Shown in pieces: positions 10,415-59,813 of a DNA stretch of 64,000 nucleotides (positions within the stretch are counted from its first letter, which is position 1; every line of letters begins with the position of its first letter). The notes under the pieces are model-generated. The model was not told where the DNA came from. It worked only from the letters and a program-made list of their open reading frames with translations, and ran no database searches. The stretch is from Microcoleus vaginatus WJT46-NPBG5 (GTDB lineage Bacteria > Cyanobacteriota > Cyanobacteriia > Cyanobacteriales > Oscillatoriaceae): positions 1 through 64,000 of the forward strand of contig JAHHHM010000024.1 of the NCBI GenBank assembly GCA_019359355.1. Direction: 5' to 3'. The position numbers and the translations under genes are program-made.

Positions 10415-13042
10415 TTACTCTTCGTCCTTCAATTGCAAAAGCGCCTGCCAGTCCTTAATCGCAGCTTCTGACCACATCCAATTCTTAGCAAGGGCGTCTT
10501 GTTGAAAGTTCACTGGATCTTGAGACATGACATAGGTTCGGGTTTTGATCGCTTTGCTCAATACCGCCTCCCGCTGCTGTGGGGGCAGGTTTTTGGCCGA
10601 TTTCATCAGGATCAAGGCTGAACCGGCATAAGCAGTTAGACTATCGCGACTAGCAGATGAATCTGATGTTAGCGTAGTGGTTGCAGCTTGTGGGTTGCCA
10701 CCGGCTACCAGTTTAGTCGCAGTCCCTGAATTTGCTTGTTGCAATTTCAAAACCTGTCCCCAACTTTGGCCGGCTCGATTCAAATTGCCTTCCGCATAGT
10801 AGGCAAAGCCCAAAGCGGTTTGGGAAAGTGAGGAGTTGGGTTGCTGTCTGACAGAGGCTTCCCAGCGCCGGCGGGCATCATCAATGCTGTAATCTTTGTT
10901 GCCGGCTTGGACAAACTGCCAGATCAACCTGCCGTAAAGAAAGTTAATCGTCGGCTCATCCTGTTGTTTGTTAGGCAGTGCGGCGAGAGCCGCTTTTGCT
11001 TGTTGTAGTGCGCCCCGATCTAACAGTGCTTCGACCGCTTGTTGTCCTGCTATCAGATCGCCCTTATTGAACTGTTCAACCGCATTTGCAACGACTTGTG
11101 GGGTGCTGGCTTTCTTCAGTTCGTTAGGATTCAAATTCTCAGTGGGTGGCGGTGAAATGGTTGCCGGCGCGAAGTCTGCCACCGGCTGTTTAGACTGAAA
11201 AATTTGATCTCGAAAAGACCATAAACCCACAAGCGTCAGCAAGCTAATACCCACAAAGCCGATCGCTAGCTTTGAGATTGAGTTGTGAAGTCTAAAGGGT
11301 GATTTGGGAACGCTGATTTGAGCTTGGGGCGACTTTTCTGTCTCCGCCTGCCGCTGATTTTGCGGTTCCGGCTGACGCTGCCGGTCGCTACTAGGGGTTG
11401 TCGGCAATTGCCTTTGTTTCGACACGGGTGCCGGCTGGTAGCTTTCTCGGAAGTCTTCTTCGTCATTTGGAGGACTCTGCCGTTCTGCTGTCGCTGAATC
11501 TGAGATATCTAGCTTGCGAAACAACTCAGCTACGAAAGCCGAAGCTTCTTCTTCATCAGGCAAATCGTCATAGCCTAGCTCCTCGGCTGAAACCTCTTCA
11601 TCTCCATAATCATCGTATCCCAGGTCATCAAAGGTATCTTCCACCTCTGCATCGTCATAGTCGCCATACAGGTCGAAATCATCTGCATCCTGTGAATTGA
11701 AAGGGATGGGCGATCTTGCCTGCCGAGTTGCCGGTAAACTCAGATCCTCTTCTGGCATTGACAAAGAGCTGTTTACATGATACCGAGAAGATAAATACCC
11801 ATCAAATTCATGATGCAGATACAAAATGGGTAAAGCCCAGTAAAGCTGATTAGACCCGTAAGCCGAAATCAGTCCTTGCCGTGCCCGACTCAGGCTCAGA
11901 TCCACAGCAAAGCCAGAGGAAAGGTTACGGTAAAACAGCCTTGCCAGCGTTAGGGCAACATCATCGGGAATCCGTTCCGCCATTGCCAGCACAGCCGGTA
12001 TTCCGCGCTTGACGAGGGCTTCTGCTAGGTTGCGCTCTCCGGTGTCGTCTGTTGGGTGTGAGGTGGCAGCGTGGGCACCTCGGCAGGAGTTGAATACAGC
12101 TAACTGGATGCCATTGTTAGCCAGCAATCCGGCTAAATCATAACCATTTAATGTTTCAGTCAAGCCGGTGGTGCGGCTGACGAGATACAGTTCACCCCCT
12201 GACGCGCCTAAATTACTATGGCCGGCATAGTGAAAAACCTGATATTTGCTGTGTTCCAGCGCTTGTGTCAGAGAAGCGCGATCCGGCTGATCCAGGATCG
12301 TCAGTTGCATCGCAGGACCGGCAGCACTTGAGAACGAGCGACTTTGCAGTTCTTTTTTTAAATGATCCGCTTCACGCTTGAGTTCCAGACTTTGTTGGTC
12401 TGTGGGAGCGGCAAGTACCATTAAAATTTTTAAAGTCGTGGCATTGCGCTCTTTGTCGTGTCCCTCTAGTGGAGGCTGGCTGACTCCTTTAATCGGGGGT
12501 TGATAGCGAGAAAAGACCACATCCGTGCCGGTGGCAATTGGGCGGTTGCCGGCATGAAGCACTTCCCAAGGAAGACGAGGGAGGATGCTGCCTTTAAGTC
12601 CCAAGCGCAAGCGCAGCACTTCTCGCCGGTGCTGAGCGATCCCTTGAGCCGTCATCCAACTATCGCGCAAGGTGCCTTGAAATAAGTAATTGTACAGGTG
12701 CCGGCCTAGGGCCACTAAGTTAACCGCTCGTGCCACCTCACCCGGATCTGCGTCTAAATCTTCCTCTTGTGCAGAATAGTAAGTTTGTTCGCGTTTTTTC
12801 GGTGTCTTGGTTCCCTGAAGGTTTGTTAATGCCTCACCAGTTGCTAAGGTTGCATTTTCCTGCAACAAACCCAGCAAGGGGTCATTCATCAAGTGACGAG
12901 CTTGGGCCAACCACTCGTCCACCGGCCAAGTGACCTGCTCTTCAGCTAAGGGCACGCCAGGGATTACCCGTTCTGTCCGCACCAAATATTCATTTCCCCC
13001 TACTGGGGTAACAGAAATATGAAATTCTAATTCCTGAGTCAC
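10415..13042 (-). CDS. hetF: CHAT-domain caspase-like protein, HetF type
   Basis: The 875-residue protein has an N-terminal region beginning TQELEFHISVTPVGGNEYLV, then a CHAT (caspase-HetF-associated-with-TPR) peptidase domain with the catalytic dyad His275 (FHYAGHSNLG) and Cys320 (AVFNSCRGAH). An acidic, disordered linker spans about 440-580, a single TM segment lies near residues 588-606 (LAIGFVGISLLTLVGLWSF), and the C-terminus is a helical TPR-like region. HetF is needed for heterocyst patterning and normal division in Nostoc, and its relatives occur in other filamentous cyanobacteria. A GTG start at 13042 has AGGAG upstream. Support for HetF rather than another CHAT protein is the N-terminal family sequence and the tandem NsiR1-like array upstream. 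Confidence 0.7.
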   Translation of the reverse strand: MTQELEFHISVTPVGGNEYLVRTERVIPGVPLAEEQVTWPVDEWLAQARHLMNDPLLGLLQENATLATGEALTNLQGTKTPKKREQTYYSAQEEDLDADPGEVARAVNLVALGRHLYNYLFQGTLRDSWMTAQGIAQHRREVLRLRLGLKGSILPRLPWEVLHAGNRPIATGTDVVFSRYQPPIKGVSQPPLEGHDKERNATTLKILMVLAAPTDQQSLELKREADHLKKELQSRSFSSAAGPAMQLTILDQPDRASLTQALEHSKYQVFHYAGHSNLGASGGELYLVSRTTGLTETLNGYDLAGLLANNGIQLAVFNSCRGAHAATSHPTDDTGERNLAEALVKRGIPAVLAMAERIPDDVALTLARLFYRNLSSGFAVDLSLSRARQGLISAYGSNQLYWALPILYLHHEFDGYLSSRYHVNSSLSMPEEDLSLPATRQARSPIPFNSQDADDFDLYGDYDDAEVEDTFDDLGYDDYGDEEVSAEELGYDDLPDEEEASAFVAELFRKLDISDSATAERQSPPNDEEDFRESYQPAPVSKQRQLPTTPSSDRQRQPEPQNQRQAETEKSPQAQISVPKSPFRLHNSISKLAIGFVGISLLTLVGLWSFRDQIFQSKQPVADFAPATISPPPTENLNPNELKKASTPQVVANAVEQFNKGDLIAGQQAVEALLDRGALQQAKAALAALPNKQQDEPTINFLYGRLIWQFVQAGNKDYSIDDARRRWEASVRQQPNSSLSQTALGFAYYAEGNLNRAGQSWGQVLKLQQANSGTATKLVAGGNPQAATTTLTSDSSASRDSLTAYAGSALILMKSAKNLPPQQREAVLSKAIKTRTYVMSQDPVNFQQDALAKNWMWSEAAIKDWQALLQLKDEE

Positions 13043-13081
13043 AGCGTCAGTGTACTCCTGCTCCAGTCCTCAATCAAGGGC

Positions 13082-13156
13082 TGAAGGTTAACGTTGAAAC
13101 ATCGCATTTATTTCACACTCCTACGAGAGTTTGACGAGTTTTAACTTTAACCTTCA
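13082..13156. promoter_or_regulatory. Inverted repeat in the hetF leader
   Basis: TGAAGGTTAA at 13082-13091 and TTAACCTTCA at 13147-13156 are perfect complements 55 bp apart, 40-115 bp upstream of the hetF start. They could be paired regulator half-sites or a long stem in the leader RNA. Confidence 0.35.
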
Positions 13157-13384
13157 ACTGTTCTGTTGGCCTTTACGCTCAATATACTCGTTCCTTCATA
13201 GAAAGTAACTTAGTATTCGTAGCTTCAGCCACAGTCGCCCCAACCGCTTAACAAATCCCAAAAATGTCAAGGCGCTTGTTCTGGCAATGGCCATGCCGGA
13301 ACTAACTGATGAGACTATCTGCCAAGCAAAAAAGTTACCGCTTAGGCTCAACTTTTCAGCTATTACTAATACCCCTCAGTTTTA

Positions 13385-13390
13385 TCCGGA
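13385..13390 (+). promoter_or_regulatory. TCCGGA (DIF+-like) motif of sRNA unit 1
   Basis: TCCGGA lies 30 bp before the -10-like TACAAT at 13415-13420 of unit 1. TCCGGA is the element reported near -35 in HetR-dependent DIF+ promoters of Nostoc, including nsiR1. Equivalent sites are TCCGGA at 13603-13608 (unit 2) and TCCTGA at 13960-13965 (unit 3), at the same spacing. Confidence 0.5.
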
Positions 13391-13419
13391 TCGCTATGGC
13401 TAACTTCAGAACAGTACAA

Positions 13420-13469
13420 TAGATGCACCCTGATTGATAGCCTCGGCCATACAAAGCTGGGGCTTTTTT
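13420..13469 (+). ncRNA. NsiR1-like small RNA, copy 1
   Basis: The unit consists of the conserved TAGATGCACCCTGAT (13420-13434) followed by a 9-bp hairpin (13439-13447 with 13456-13464) and six T, a complete intrinsic terminator. The -10-like TACAAT ends at 13420, so the transcript should begin near 13427 and be only about 40 nt long. It reads away from hetF. Position, orientation and tandem repetition match NsiR1 of heterocystous cyanobacteria; the RNA sequence itself was not compared. Confidence 0.55.
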
Positions 13470-13640
13470 ATTTAAACAAATTTCCCAGCTCTGCCTTAAC
13501 AATTTTACCTCCAAGCGATCAAATTTTTTTCAATCCTCAGATTCAAGTTGTTACCGGCAGCCCTGTTGTTTTCAGATTTTGCGTTTGTGCCGCTAAAGAT
13601 TTTCCGGATGTCTCTATCAACCCCAAGAACAATGAATTGG

Positions 13641-13691
13641 TAGATGCACCCTGATAAACTTTCCCAGCCTTACCAAGGTTGGGATTTTTTT
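13641..13691 (+). ncRNA. NsiR1-like small RNA, copy 2
   Basis: The same TAGATGCACCCTGAT (13641-13655) is followed by a 10-bp hairpin (13662-13671 with 13675-13684) and seven T. The hairpin sequence differs from copy 1 while the structure is kept. TCCGGA lies 38 bp upstream, and AAGAACA is shared with copy 3. Confidence 0.55.
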
Positions 13692-13997
13692 AATTAATCA
13701 ACACAGCCGGATAAATTTGCTCGGCAGATGTACTTTCCCCAGATTTATAAACTCAAAACAACGACTTTATTAATTGTTTTTTGCTTGAGCAAACTCGTTA
13801 TATCTAGCAGCAAAACCAAAATTTAACACTTTGTTGGCAAGTTGATTCCCATTGCTACACCCGACTTGTCTTCGCCAACAAAATAGAAGATTCCCTGTCT
13901 AAAAAAGTCAGCGGCTCTAAAGAATTTAGTAGATTTAGCAACCTGTTTTCTTCAATTTATCCTGATGAGTGACACAAACTGAAGAACATTAGATTGG

Positions 13998-14049
13998 TAG
14001 ATGCACCCTGATGAACGTCCCCGGCTAATCGAGTCCGGGGATTTTTTTT
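13998..14049 (+). ncRNA. NsiR1-like small RNA, copy 3
   Basis: TAGATGCACCCTGAT (13998-14012) is followed by a TCCCCGG/CCGGGGA hairpin (14018-14024 with 14035-14041) and eight T. The -10-like TTAGAT is at 13989-13994. The TCCGGA element is changed to TCCTGA at 13960, with spacing unchanged. Confidence 0.55.
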
Positions 14050-14127
14050 ACCGGCTTTCAGCTTAAACACAATTAGCGATTGTAGAGACGCGGGTTAATG
14101 CGCCTCTACTGCCTATCGAGTCAGCCG

Positions 14128-54688: not shown

Positions 54689-54922
54689 TGTTGCACCTTC
54701 CTTGCTACGCATCCTTGCACCCTGATGCTAAAGGCTTTCATCCCTCACCGGCAGTCTGCCAGCCTTGAGGATTTTGTTTTAAATTAAGCCCCTCAATTCT
54801 ATTTAGTACTCTCAACAGAGCTTTATATACCGTAGGGTAGGTAATGCCCACCCTAACAATTTACTCACCTAAATTAATGGCTAACTTCAGTTTCAATTTG
54901 TTAGCGATCACCTCCATACATA
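54571..54922. repeat. 352-bp identical direct repeat, copy 1
   Basis: The segment covers the N-terminal codons of the WD40 gene, its leader, and the last codons of the next paralogue. It is identical by eye to 55662-56013, offset 1091 bp. It signals a very recent gene duplication or conversion. Confidence 0.85.
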
Positions 54923-56876: not shown

Positions 56877-57060
56877 TGTTGCACCTTCCTTGCTCCACAT
56901 CTTTGCACGCTGATGCTGAAGGTTTGAATCCTTCACCGGCAGCGTGCCACCCTTGAGGGTTTTGTTTTAAATTAAGCCCCTCAATTCTATTTAGTGATTT
57001 TAGAAGCGCCCTAAGTTGTAAAACTTCTTTACATCTAAACAAATAAACGCAGATTTCTAC

Positions 57061-57096: not shown

Positions 57097-59409
57097 TTAT
57101 CGTTCAACCGGCTTTAATTCTGCCGGCTGATTTGTCGTCTGAACTGGAAAGCGAAAGATCGCATAAACAGCTTGAACTGTAAACACAAACATCGTCATTG
57201 CACCGATGGCAAAAAGGATATCGCCTGGAATTCGTAACCACACAGTCCAGCGCATCCACGGACTGCCAATCACTTCAGCACTGCGGGCGAACCAAGTACC
57301 ATGATTAATCGATACAGCAAGCTGATAGAAACCATTGGGAATTAAGCCAAAAATTAGCATTCCCACTAAGCCGCCGTTAATCGACCAGAAAGAGAAGCGT
57401 AGCAGCTTTTCATTCCAAGCCCTTTCGGGTACAAATTCCCGCAGCGAAAACAGCATCAAAGCCAGTGCTAAGCAGCCATATACGCCAAATAAGGCAGAAT
57501 GTGCGTGAATGGGTGTAGTGTTTAAACCTTGGGAATAGTACAGAACAATCGGTGGATTAATTAAGAATCCAAAGACGCCGGCACCGACTAAATTCCAAAA
57601 ACAAGTTGCGATAAAAAACCGCAAGGGCCAACGATAAAATCCTTCGGCTTCTTGAGAAAGTTTTAAAGTCTTTAACACTTCAAACCCAATTAATGTTAAC
57701 GGCACCACTTCTAACGCAGAAAAGACTGAACCGATTGCCGCAATGAAAGAGGGAGTTCCCGAAAAATACAGATGGTGCAACGTTCCAATTACCCCACTTC
57801 CTAAATATAAAAGTGTGGTTAGATATGTGGCACGCAAAGCCGAAGATTTCTTGAGGAAACCCAACTCGCTGCACAGATAGGCAATCACAACCGTGGCAAA
57901 TACTTCAAAGAAACCTTCAACCCATAGATGAATCACCCACCATCGCCAATATTCGGCAATGCTCAAAGACGTGTGATTGCTATAGGCTAAACCGACTGAA
58001 TAAAAGAGGGGAATTGTAATTGCGCTATAGAGGAAAAAGTGACTCAAGCCGGTAGGACTTTTTTCTTTGAGGAGTGCCGGCTTAAAGGCGCGGTACAGCA
58101 GCCACAGCCAGAAAACCATGCCACCTATAAGGAGGATTTGCCAAACTCGCCCTAACTCGATGTATTCATAGCCTTGGTGTCCCCAGAGAAAGCTATTTTT
58201 AACATCGAGAATGCCAGTAATGGCACTCCAAGTTCCGATCATGGAACCGACAACAATTGCAGTTAAGGCAATTAATAAAACGCTATTTCCTAGCGCTTGA
58301 TATTTGGGTTCGTTATTGCCAAAACGCGGCGCAAAATACAAACCGGCTGCTAACCAGCAAGTTGCAATCCAAAAAATTCCAAGTTGCAAGTGCCAGGTAC
58401 GGGAGGCGGCATAGGGAAGGAATTTATTCAGGGGAATTCCGTAAAAACCTTCGGCTTCTACGGCATAGTGTGCGGTGAACATTCCCATCAAAATTTGCAC
58501 TAAAAATAGTGCCATCGCTACGCCAAAAAACAGGGAGGTTACTTTTTGGCTCGGTGTGGGAATTCGCACTGCTGGACGTGCCGGCACCGGCTGCAATTCA
58601 TCGGCCTCTTCTTGAGCGAGGTAGATGAATAAAAACACCCCAATCCCTGCAATTAGCACGATAACGGATACAATTGACCAAATGATAAATTGTCCAGGTG
58701 CTTGATTGCCAACTAAGTTATCATGGGGCCAATTTGCTGTGTAAGAAAAGGGTGCATTCGGGCGATTTGCTACTGCTGCCCAAGCTGTCCAAGTAAAGAA
58801 GGCTGTGACGTTATGAATTTGGGTTTCGTCTTTAAACCAACCATTCGGAATTGAGTGAATGGGAGAGCCGTGAGACAACAGTTCGTGATAGTCTGAAAAG
58901 ACTTGTTTTAATCCTTGAGTTTGGGCGTTAGTCAGGATTAATTCGTGAGTTTGAGACTCGTACCGATTGGTTTTAAACTCTTCGCTGACTTGCGCTTCCA
59001 AACCGGCTCTTTCTCGTGCCGGCAAGGCTTCTAAATCTGCTTGGGAAAACTTACTATCGCCATTGTATAAAACGCCTGCTGTTGCTAATCCCCAGCGGTG
59101 GAGAACATCAGCCGACCAGTCAGGGGCTAAATAGCTTCCGTGCCCCCAAACGCTGCCAATATGCTGCCCGCCACGCGCTAAATAAGTTTCTTGTCCGGAT
59201 TGTATTTCTTTCTGAGTTAGAACAATTTCTTGCTGCGGAGAACGTACAGTTTCTGGCACAGGTGGCGCGTTTTTCCAGATAATCGCACCGGCTATCAACA
59301 AAACTGTAAAGGTTGCGATGCAAATTAATACCAGCCACGCGGGAAGACTGAGTTGACGCTTTTTGGGAACGCCTGTAGTGCCGGCATCAACTAATGTGGA
59401 ATTGGCCAT
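57097..59409 (-). CDS. norB: Quinol-dependent nitric oxide reductase (qNOR)
   Basis: The 770-residue membrane protein reduces two NO to N2O with electrons from quinol. The qNOR-specific N-terminal extension fused to the catalytic subunit is visible (QETYLARGGQHIGSVWGHGS, YLAPDWSADVLHRWG). About 14 TM helices follow, with heme- and iron-ligand regions SRTWHLQLGIFWIATCW, LWVEGFFEVFATVVIAYL, GTLHHLYFSGTP and IHAHSALFGVYG. The length is typical of NorZ-type enzymes. The ATG at 59409 has GGAGG eight bases upstream. It probably detoxifies NO. PTOX and three further genes on the same strand lie upstream. Confidence 0.93.
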   Translation of the reverse strand: MANSTLVDAGTTGVPKKRQLSLPAWLVLICIATFTVLLIAGAIIWKNAPPVPETVRSPQQEIVLTQKEIQSGQETYLARGGQHIGSVWGHGSYLAPDWSADVLHRWGLATAGVLYNGDSKFSQADLEALPARERAGLEAQVSEEFKTNRYESQTHELILTNAQTQGLKQVFSDYHELLSHGSPIHSIPNGWFKDETQIHNVTAFFTWTAWAAVANRPNAPFSYTANWPHDNLVGNQAPGQFIIWSIVSVIVLIAGIGVFLFIYLAQEEADELQPVPARPAVRIPTPSQKVTSLFFGVAMALFLVQILMGMFTAHYAVEAEGFYGIPLNKFLPYAASRTWHLQLGIFWIATCWLAAGLYFAPRFGNNEPKYQALGNSVLLIALTAIVVGSMIGTWSAITGILDVKNSFLWGHQGYEYIELGRVWQILLIGGMVFWLWLLYRAFKPALLKEKSPTGLSHFFLYSAITIPLFYSVGLAYSNHTSLSIAEYWRWWVIHLWVEGFFEVFATVVIAYLCSELGFLKKSSALRATYLTTLLYLGSGVIGTLHHLYFSGTPSFIAAIGSVFSALEVVPLTLIGFEVLKTLKLSQEAEGFYRWPLRFFIATCFWNLVGAGVFGFLINPPIVLYYSQGLNTTPIHAHSALFGVYGCLALALMLFSLREFVPERAWNEKLLRFSFWSINGGLVGMLIFGLIPNGFYQLAVSINHGTWFARSAEVIGSPWMRWTVWLRIPGDILFAIGAMTMFVFTVQAVYAIFRFPVQTTNQPAELKPVER

Positions 59410-59813
59410 AGCCAAACCTCCAAAAAATACTGGATTAGTCTTTAAGTTTCGTTAAATGGTTGCTGATTTTACAGACAGCTTTTGATCACGCTAAAACAAT
59501 TTGTAGCGCTTTCACAAGGATTTGCGCGACTTACCAGCATTTCTTAAGCTTTTTCTAACACTTGTAGGTAATTAATAAATGCTGAGCTTGCTAGTACCGA
59601 ACGCGGCTTTAGTGGTCAAAAAAGAAACCAACAACGTCACACAAACTCCATGATTGGCAAACAGCGTCGGCTACGAGTAAGCTTAAAAATTAGATTGAGA
59701 AACGCTGTGAATAAAGGAGTGTATGGTTAATAAATCAGTTGCTGGTTGAGTCAACAAAAATCAATTTTTAGCTTTGAAAGCAAGGAATTTTCCTTGACCG
59801 AGGCAAACAATAA
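59410..59813. other. qNOR promoter region
   Basis: The 404-bp gap between PTOX and qNOR genes contains the operator-like site TACGAGTAAGCTTAAA (59672-59687). No ORF is present and no strong terminator for PTOX was seen. Confidence 0.45.
59672..59687. promoter_or_regulatory. GAGNWAGCTYA operator-like site 1
   Basis: TACGAGTAAGCTTAAA is one of four similar sites in this cluster (others at 61292, 61756 and 62605), about 265 bp upstream of the qNOR start. It is the most degenerate copy. Confidence 0.4.

Follow-up and report, generated by a model that had tools for sequence, protein, structure and literature searches.

Predicted NsiR1 small RNA genes divergent from hetF and a wider family of core-sharing units with HetR-type promoters in a cyanobacterium

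NsiR1-type units divergent from hetF

The window (the whole 64,000-nucleotide stretch analyzed) carries on its minus strand, at 10415..13042, a gene with a GTG start whose 875-amino-acid product matches the NCBIfam HetF model. Residues 1-872 align to the model with 938 bits, under its cut-off of 1200 bits; identity to 22 other HetF proteins ranges over 38-53%. His275 and Cys320, both putative catalytic residues, are invariant across these 23 aligned proteins. Upstream of hetF, beyond a region at 13043..13416, three units lie on the opposite strand 378, 599, and 956 nt from the hetF start. Each contains the 15-nt core TAGATGCACCCTGAT, which has exactly three perfect copies in the window, all on the plus strand (13420-13434, 13641-13655, and 13998-14012). 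An initial annotation made from the sequence had noticed the three cores, each followed by a differing hairpin and a T-run; exact matching bore this out, with the core shortened from the claimed 16 nt to 15. When up to three mismatches were allowed, the window gave 6 matches against 1.38 expected, a number reached by 1 of 100 shuffles, and only the three array copies among them were exact. We ruled out a chance repeat because the genome contains 33 matches to the core with at most two mismatches, versus 2 for the reversed control.

The order of elements is the same in every copy: a DIF1 box, the core, and a G+C-rich hairpin with a T-run, the stem sequence varying between copies. The box is TCCGGA in copies 1 and 2 (13385..13390 and 13603..13608, plus strand), starting 35 and 38 nt before TAGATG, and the DIF1-like TCCTGA in copy 3 (13960..13965, plus strand), starting 38 nt before TAGATG. 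A separation of 29 to 30 bp between this box and a -10-like box, proposed in the initial annotation, holds for copy 1, in which 29 nt lie between the box and TAGATG, and not for copies 2 and 3, in which 32 nt do. DIF1-type promoters in Nostoc fire under HetR control, and transcription of NsiR1 is characteristically induced by nitrogen step-down.

The annotation had also proposed a covariance-model search for NsiR1. With Rfam RF02399 (gathering score, 39 bits), copy 2 (13638..13692, plus strand) and copy 3 (13995..14049, plus strand) scored 58.9 and 54.6 bits, above the gathering score, whereas copy 1 (13417..13471, plus strand), with its 5' core, terminator hairpin, and T-run, fell narrowly below it at 37.7 bits. 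Predicted fold energies were -15.1, -16.1, and -17.4 kcal/mol for copies 1, 2, and 3, with z-scores of -1.64, -2.32, and -1.29, so that the hairpin folds by themselves are unexceptional; the core is mostly unpaired in these folds apart from a weak short stem. Nearby, a THF-II riboswitch match at 13186 reached 20 bits against a gathering score of 41 and was taken as chance. The copies are in tandem, diverge from hetF, and have individual DIF1 boxes near the predicted -35 positions. The model scores and positions thus agree with the annotated picture of tandem NsiR1-like units divergent from hetF behind DIF1-type boxes, and we consider the three units to be genuine NsiR1 genes, predicted to specify separate, terminator-ended small RNAs of about 55 nt.

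The host genome (6.46 Mb in 44 contigs, 99.6% complete) contains one hetR, as the annotation had predicted, with a match to the HetR equivalog above cut-off. Upstream of hetR is a patX-like frame of 60 aa with the C-terminus RGSGRVGG and a TCCGGA box 61 nt before its start, and there is one hetP-like gene. In a profile search for nifH only, the best nifH-family match in this 99.6% complete genome was 220.5 bits against a cut-off of 394.35, and by this search the host does not have the profile of a diazotrophic heterocyst former. It is most likely a filamentous, non-heterocystous relative of Oscillatoria. The suspicion that a different lineage was involved was well placed; the arrangement of NsiR1 and hetF ascribed to heterocystous Nostocales is present, and that lineage label was too narrow because the host has no nifH above cut-off. 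Separately, a 772-aa frame on the minus strand of the window (57097-59415) resembles a quinol-type nitric oxide reductase when its translation is inspected by eye.

To place the array in a wider context, we collected 342 units within 3 kb upstream of hetF at 80 named hetF loci. All 342 point away from hetF. A DIF1 box is found at the right place in 279 of them exactly and in 326 with at most one mismatch, and GGGnnnnnCCC, the HetR-type palindrome described below, precedes none of the 342. In this search, which admitted up to two mismatches, the core was exact in 266 units, with one mismatch in 68 and two in 8. Of the named loci, 69 include 0.9 kb or more of upstream sequence; 65 of these have a divergent unit, and four (L130, L141, L163, and L177) have none. 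We took the heterocystous or non-heterocystous state of these loci from organism names, which are uncertain for a few metagenome-assembled genomes. At the 48 heterocystous-labelled loci, the median copy number is 5 and the median distance from hetF to the first copy is 183 nt, while a single copy is present at 15 of the 17 non-heterocystous-labelled loci. The window array, with three copies at 378 to 956 nt, has an unusual copy number for a host of this type but is of an ordinary kind.

Five further genomes of the same family had three copies (one carrying a mismatch) in one case, two in three cases, and one in one case within the stretches examined, which include the hetF start for G388, G392, and G393 but not for G394 or G389; G394 has two copies and a partial duplicate. 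The spacings between copies, 221 and 357 nt, are identical in two congeneric genomes, where all three copies also lie beside hetF. Identity within the genus is 95.7-98.9% for the units with their promoters, 91.6-96.9% for the two inner spacers, and 94.0-97.6% for the gap between hetF and copy 1, so conservation at this depth does not separate the window units from the spacers.

Units away from hetF and a gatB-linked class

Searching the host genome with the core revealed 17 units in four loci, 15 with exact cores and 2 with one mismatch: the three at hetF, nine on contig C34, four on contig C24, and one further unit on C24. The nine form a second DIF1-type array (C34:258592-259477) at steps of about 102 nt, with DIF1 boxes recognized by eye with at most one mismatch. 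Related DIF1 arrays of 2, 3, 4, and 8 units occur in four stretches from the same family. Two open frames of 134 and 210 aa opposite the C34 array look spurious. The four-copy array (C24:222424-222951) follows a gene identified by eye as purD. Its first three copies are near-identical, at 157-nt steps, and carry a HetR-type palindrome; the fourth has only half of it. This palindrome, GGGGTTAGACCCC, and the palindrome GGGGTTTGACCCC before the single C24 copy, which sits between gatB and argJ, both fit GGGnnnnnCCC. Palindromes are thus found at 4 of the 5 non-DIF copies in the host (C24:30198, 222391, 222548, and 222705). We refer to copies with a DIF1 box as class A and to copies with a GGGnnnnnCCC palindrome in its place as class B; the window copies are not class B.

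The initial annotation had named, as an outcome that would speak against it, a core found throughout the genome away from hetF as a general terminator-linked repeat. Taken literally, this is what we observed, in that 14 of the 17 host units lie away from hetF. In substance it is not, since the additional units are complete: each combines promoter, core, and terminator, nearly all with a DIF1 or HetR-type promoter, which is not the form of a scattered repeat.

The same distribution bears on whether the RNAs act mainly in cis. Transcripts of copy 1, or convergent transcripts of the array, might be antisense to a long hetF leader, the other copies being amplified by-products, in line with a proposal made for nsiR1.1 in Nostoc. 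The divergent placement at 65 of 69 hetF loci fits such a mechanism, and in Nostoc hetF is subject to antisense inhibition by nsiR1.1 (PMC9045159). In the window, however, 378 nt separate the hetF start codon from the nearest copy, so that for antisense overlap the hetF transcript would have to start beyond copy 1, with a leader some 430 nt long; at the 17 non-heterocystous-labelled loci the first copy is 215-925 nt away. Moreover, the 14 host units away from hetF have kept the core, and inactivation of nsiR1.1 changed transcriptional reporter fusions little in one study (PMC8406250). We consider a mainly cis role unlikely.

Class B extends well beyond this host. The pattern GGGGNNNNNCCC-N15..45-core was found in 154 of 388 cyanobacterial genomes, a lower bound because the pattern demands an exact core and GGGG, and the reversed control gave 0. 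We examined 70 class-B loci, 30 from the search output and 40 that were picked (about 10 of these as second copies), representing 69 distinct places. gatB lies immediately upstream on the same strand in 40 of the 69, and argJ lies downstream in 4 more. Among these 44 gatB/argJ places, 38 yield GGGGTgtcACCCCtCaccCc....aTGgcATAcTgTGaTAaG as the consensus ahead of the core. It consists of a palindrome across the -35 region and a plausible -10 hexamer, with a predicted start close to the G that precedes TAGATG.

An alignment of the hairpins of 28 of the 38 copies (four shortened by the T-run rule and six similar ones were excluded) revealed compensatory change in 6 of 8 pairs. The invariance of the core in this alignment is no evidence of constraint because its members were picked by an exact core. 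A scan downstream of gatB that allowed three mismatches recovered 15 cores, and all 15 were exact.

No DIF1 box was found in 76 class-B units (one unit counted twice). A covariance model of class B, R1, scored 62-68 bits on four gatB-type copies, one of them from its training set, and no more than 37.4 bits on any of the remaining units in the 13 searched sources, the palindrome-driven C24 array among them. Three copies of that array have a palindrome but a different stem, and they score alongside the units not linked to gatB. Conversely, the Rfam NsiR1 model gave 28.5-35.9 bits on class B, below gathering in all 20 loci tested. Together, these scores indicate that class B is a sibling of NsiR1, distinct from it and so far below threshold.

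Differences of this size would also be expected if the palindrome and DIF1 copies were unrelated RNAs whose cores had converged on a common target site: both stems and promoters differ between the classes, and each model scores the units of the other class poorly. Against this, the two kinds of RNA are of one size and agree at 15 consecutive positions in the same location, which is, we would argue, more than convergence usually produces. We regard separate origins as improbable and favor the reading of class B as a sibling of NsiR1.

Co-occurrence with HetR and candidate targets

Across the same 388 genomes, NsiR1 was above cut-off in 201 and HetR was present in 196. Both occurred in 194 genomes, NsiR1 only in 7, HetR only in 2, and neither in 185 (Fisher p 1.7e-99, shared ancestry being ignored). 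Both HetR-only genomes, G164 and G238, have class B. The seven with NsiR1 and no detected HetR are G006, G021, G093, G243, G309, G368, and G386, of which five (G006, G093, G309, G368, and G386) keep the class-B pattern; G006 is 99% complete and G309 94%. Missing sequence, a diverged HetR, or another regulator could each possibly account for these seven. Among the 196 HetR genomes, the exact class-B pattern is present in 149 and absent from 47.

The gatB place allowed a comparison within the order. A gatB match was found in 75 of 80 genomes of the order, 23 of the 75 falling outside the comparison of downstream regions. The core stands right after gatB in 12 of 16 HetR-positive genomes versus 1 of 14 HetR-negative ones. 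For the HetR-positive group, class B is right after gatB by coordinates in 11, and in G087 an imperfect palindrome precedes the core; no core was found directly after gatB in G107, G339, and G369 (by sequence) or in G314 (by coordinates), the last of which has class B elsewhere. In 13 of the 14 HetR-negative genomes, no core follows gatB (one of the stretches comprising only 620 bases). The gatB-linked RNA of G037, a genome without HetR, is intact and retains a -10-like box but has lost the palindrome; this genome is in effect a natural experiment on the palindrome without HetR. Of 22 more downstream regions, from genomes left unassigned for HetR, 13 have the core and 9 do not.

These results also speak to the repetitive nature of the core. 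A scattered terminator repeat is ruled out by the stable places of the units, their promoter boxes, and their rarity in genomes lacking HetR. A mobile or gene-converted terminator-linked repeat with no regulatory role could account for 17 units in four loci, for the near-identical tandem copies at C34 and C24, and for a second DIF1 array that varies from 9 units in the host to 2, 3, 4, or 8 in its relatives. It would not be expected to leave every core downstream of gatB exact while the stems drift with compensatory change, to hold class-specific promoter boxes at near-fixed spacing, to stay in place at hetF and gatB, or to be nearly absent from genomes without HetR, and we judge it very improbable.

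The core contains CCCTGAT, complementary to ATCAGGG, and the hetP-like gene of the host has ATCAGG, complementary to CCTGAT of the core, at its ribosome-binding site. The pairing spans just 6-7 nt, and a longer match 265 nt upstream of the ATG may be outside the transcript. In three genomes of a family that we take to be Nostocaceae, ATCAGGG is at the ribosome-binding site of 3 of 10 hetP-family genes, one paralogue in each genome. Among 16 hetP-family genes outside that family, the site holds ATCAGG in the host gene and GGGTGCA in L296; at L303, ATCAGG lies near a hetP-family start without firm placement. The seed motif is absent from most hetP leaders elsewhere, and the leader matches are only suggestive of targeting. 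We also placed 16 near-matches to the core outside units (at most two mismatches, host genome) relative to open reading frames, and none was compelling.

A duplex scan of 123 leaders of 150 nt, drawn from the host stretches examined, placed hetP at rank 7% and hetR at 12%; hetF, ftsZ, ftsQ, patX, gatB, and argJ were not singled out. The strongest duplex (-26.2 kcal/mol) was with a spurious frame across the C34 array, followed by two duplicated genes of the window at 54712 and 55803 (-25.0) and an antiporter-like gene of L245 (-23.5). The two duplicated genes, on the minus strand, appear by eye to be of the WD40/HEAT type and have a diverged third copy at 56936. Just before the ATG, their leaders contain CATCAGGGTGCA, a 12-nt perfect complement of the core plus one base, which could be a target of the RNA or a coincidence.

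A proposed HetR-driven circuit and its relation to known systems

The units, their promoter motifs, synteny, and conservation, and the co-occurrence with HetR are matters of sequence. Building on them, we propose, with a probability of roughly 0.7, that the three NsiR1 genes belong to a larger family with two promoter types that is driven by HetR, pairs through its core with shared targets, and couples HetR to cell division. The family would be defined by one conserved, mostly unpaired 5' core, TAGATGCACCCTGAT, before a variable terminator stem. When HetR activity rises, the DIF1 units would be turned on through HetR and HetZ and the palindrome units by HetR directly. We infer this transcription and its dependence on HetR from the promoter motifs, and the targets and physiological role are likewise predictions. 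The common core would base-pair in trans around the ribosome-binding sites of shared targets, of which the best candidates would be the hetP-like gene and, in cis, hetF. The unpaired CCCTGAT of the core and the ATCAGG(G) at hetP ribosome-binding sites favor action in trans there, and an added cis effect at hetF could arise if the hetF leader reaches copy 1. By lowering HetF, the RNAs would link cell division and the state of the filament to HetR activity in the absence of heterocysts. Because HetF is a member of the divisome in Anabaena (PMC8406250), it is natural to suppose a role in cell division.

A broader possibility, which we hold to be evenly balanced, is that NsiR1, known as a marker for the heterocyst, the cell type that fixes nitrogen, did not originate as an RNA of heterocysts. 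It would instead be one branch of a family of small RNAs with a 15-nt seed that was wired to HetR in an ancestor of filamentous cyanobacteria. The gatB-linked branch, with a HetR-type operator for direct control, would have been conserved in many families, put to new use or lost in part among heterocyst formers, and, where HetR was lost, mostly lost as well or left without its operator. The distribution of the units suggests that the circuit of NsiR1 and HetR is older than heterocysts. If so, the ancestral output of HetR would include a multicopy small RNA that tunes HetF and cell division, with implications for the way in which pre-existing components were built into heterocyst control. The role of HetR and PatX in filamentous non-heterocyst cyanobacteria has been called a mystery (PMC11298460). 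That question gains a small, testable output: RNAs of about 50 nt behind HetR-type promoters, including one whose position next to gatB is conserved, together with candidate targets.

NsiR1, its linkage to hetF, and the presence of an NsiR1-like RNA in one genus that forms no heterocysts (Limnospira, PMC8400943) are already known. In the literature searched, which covered NsiR1 and HetR-dependent small RNAs but not the original NsiR1 papers (Ionescu 2010, Muro-Pastor 2014), we found no report of the gatB-linked class, and an earlier one is possible; as far as that literature goes, the two-promoter family and its gatB-linked HetR-type sibling are new. The known RNA, RNA162 of Limnospira indica PCC 8005, is a 57-nt NsiR1-like RNA that, like those described here, belongs to a non-heterocystous filamentous cyanobacterium with hetR (PMC8400943). 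Unlike the window array, it is presented in the available description without mention of tandem copies, linkage to hetF, or promoter class.

For the promoters, the closest parallel is the HetR operator of hetP, GAGGGGTCTAACCCCTC, and the requirement published for HetR is GGGnnnnnCCC (PMC4192349). The palindromes of the gatB-linked copy and of three of the four copies in the C24 array fit this requirement. Unlike the hetP operator, they precede a small RNA with the NsiR1 core and are putative HetR sites recognized by motif match. NsiR8 and NsiR9 of Nostoc, of 171 and 122 nt, are HetR-dependent small RNAs with homologues reported only from heterocystous genomes (PMC4734099). They resemble the present units as noncoding RNAs with a link to HetR, which is a predicted one here, and are set apart here by length and described range.

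A close known counterpart is NsiR1 of Nostoc sp. PCC 7120, which is HetR dependent and present in 12 tandem copies upstream of hetF; one copy inhibits hetF through antisense action, and another represses the hetP-like gene alr3234 at its translation start (PMC9045159). The window units differ from it in having three copies rather than 12, set 221 and 357 nt apart with the first 378 nt from hetF, and in a host with no nifH above cut-off and with further arrays away from hetF. They share with it the core, the size, the terminator, the DIF1 promoter, the tandem copies, and the divergent position upstream of hetF.
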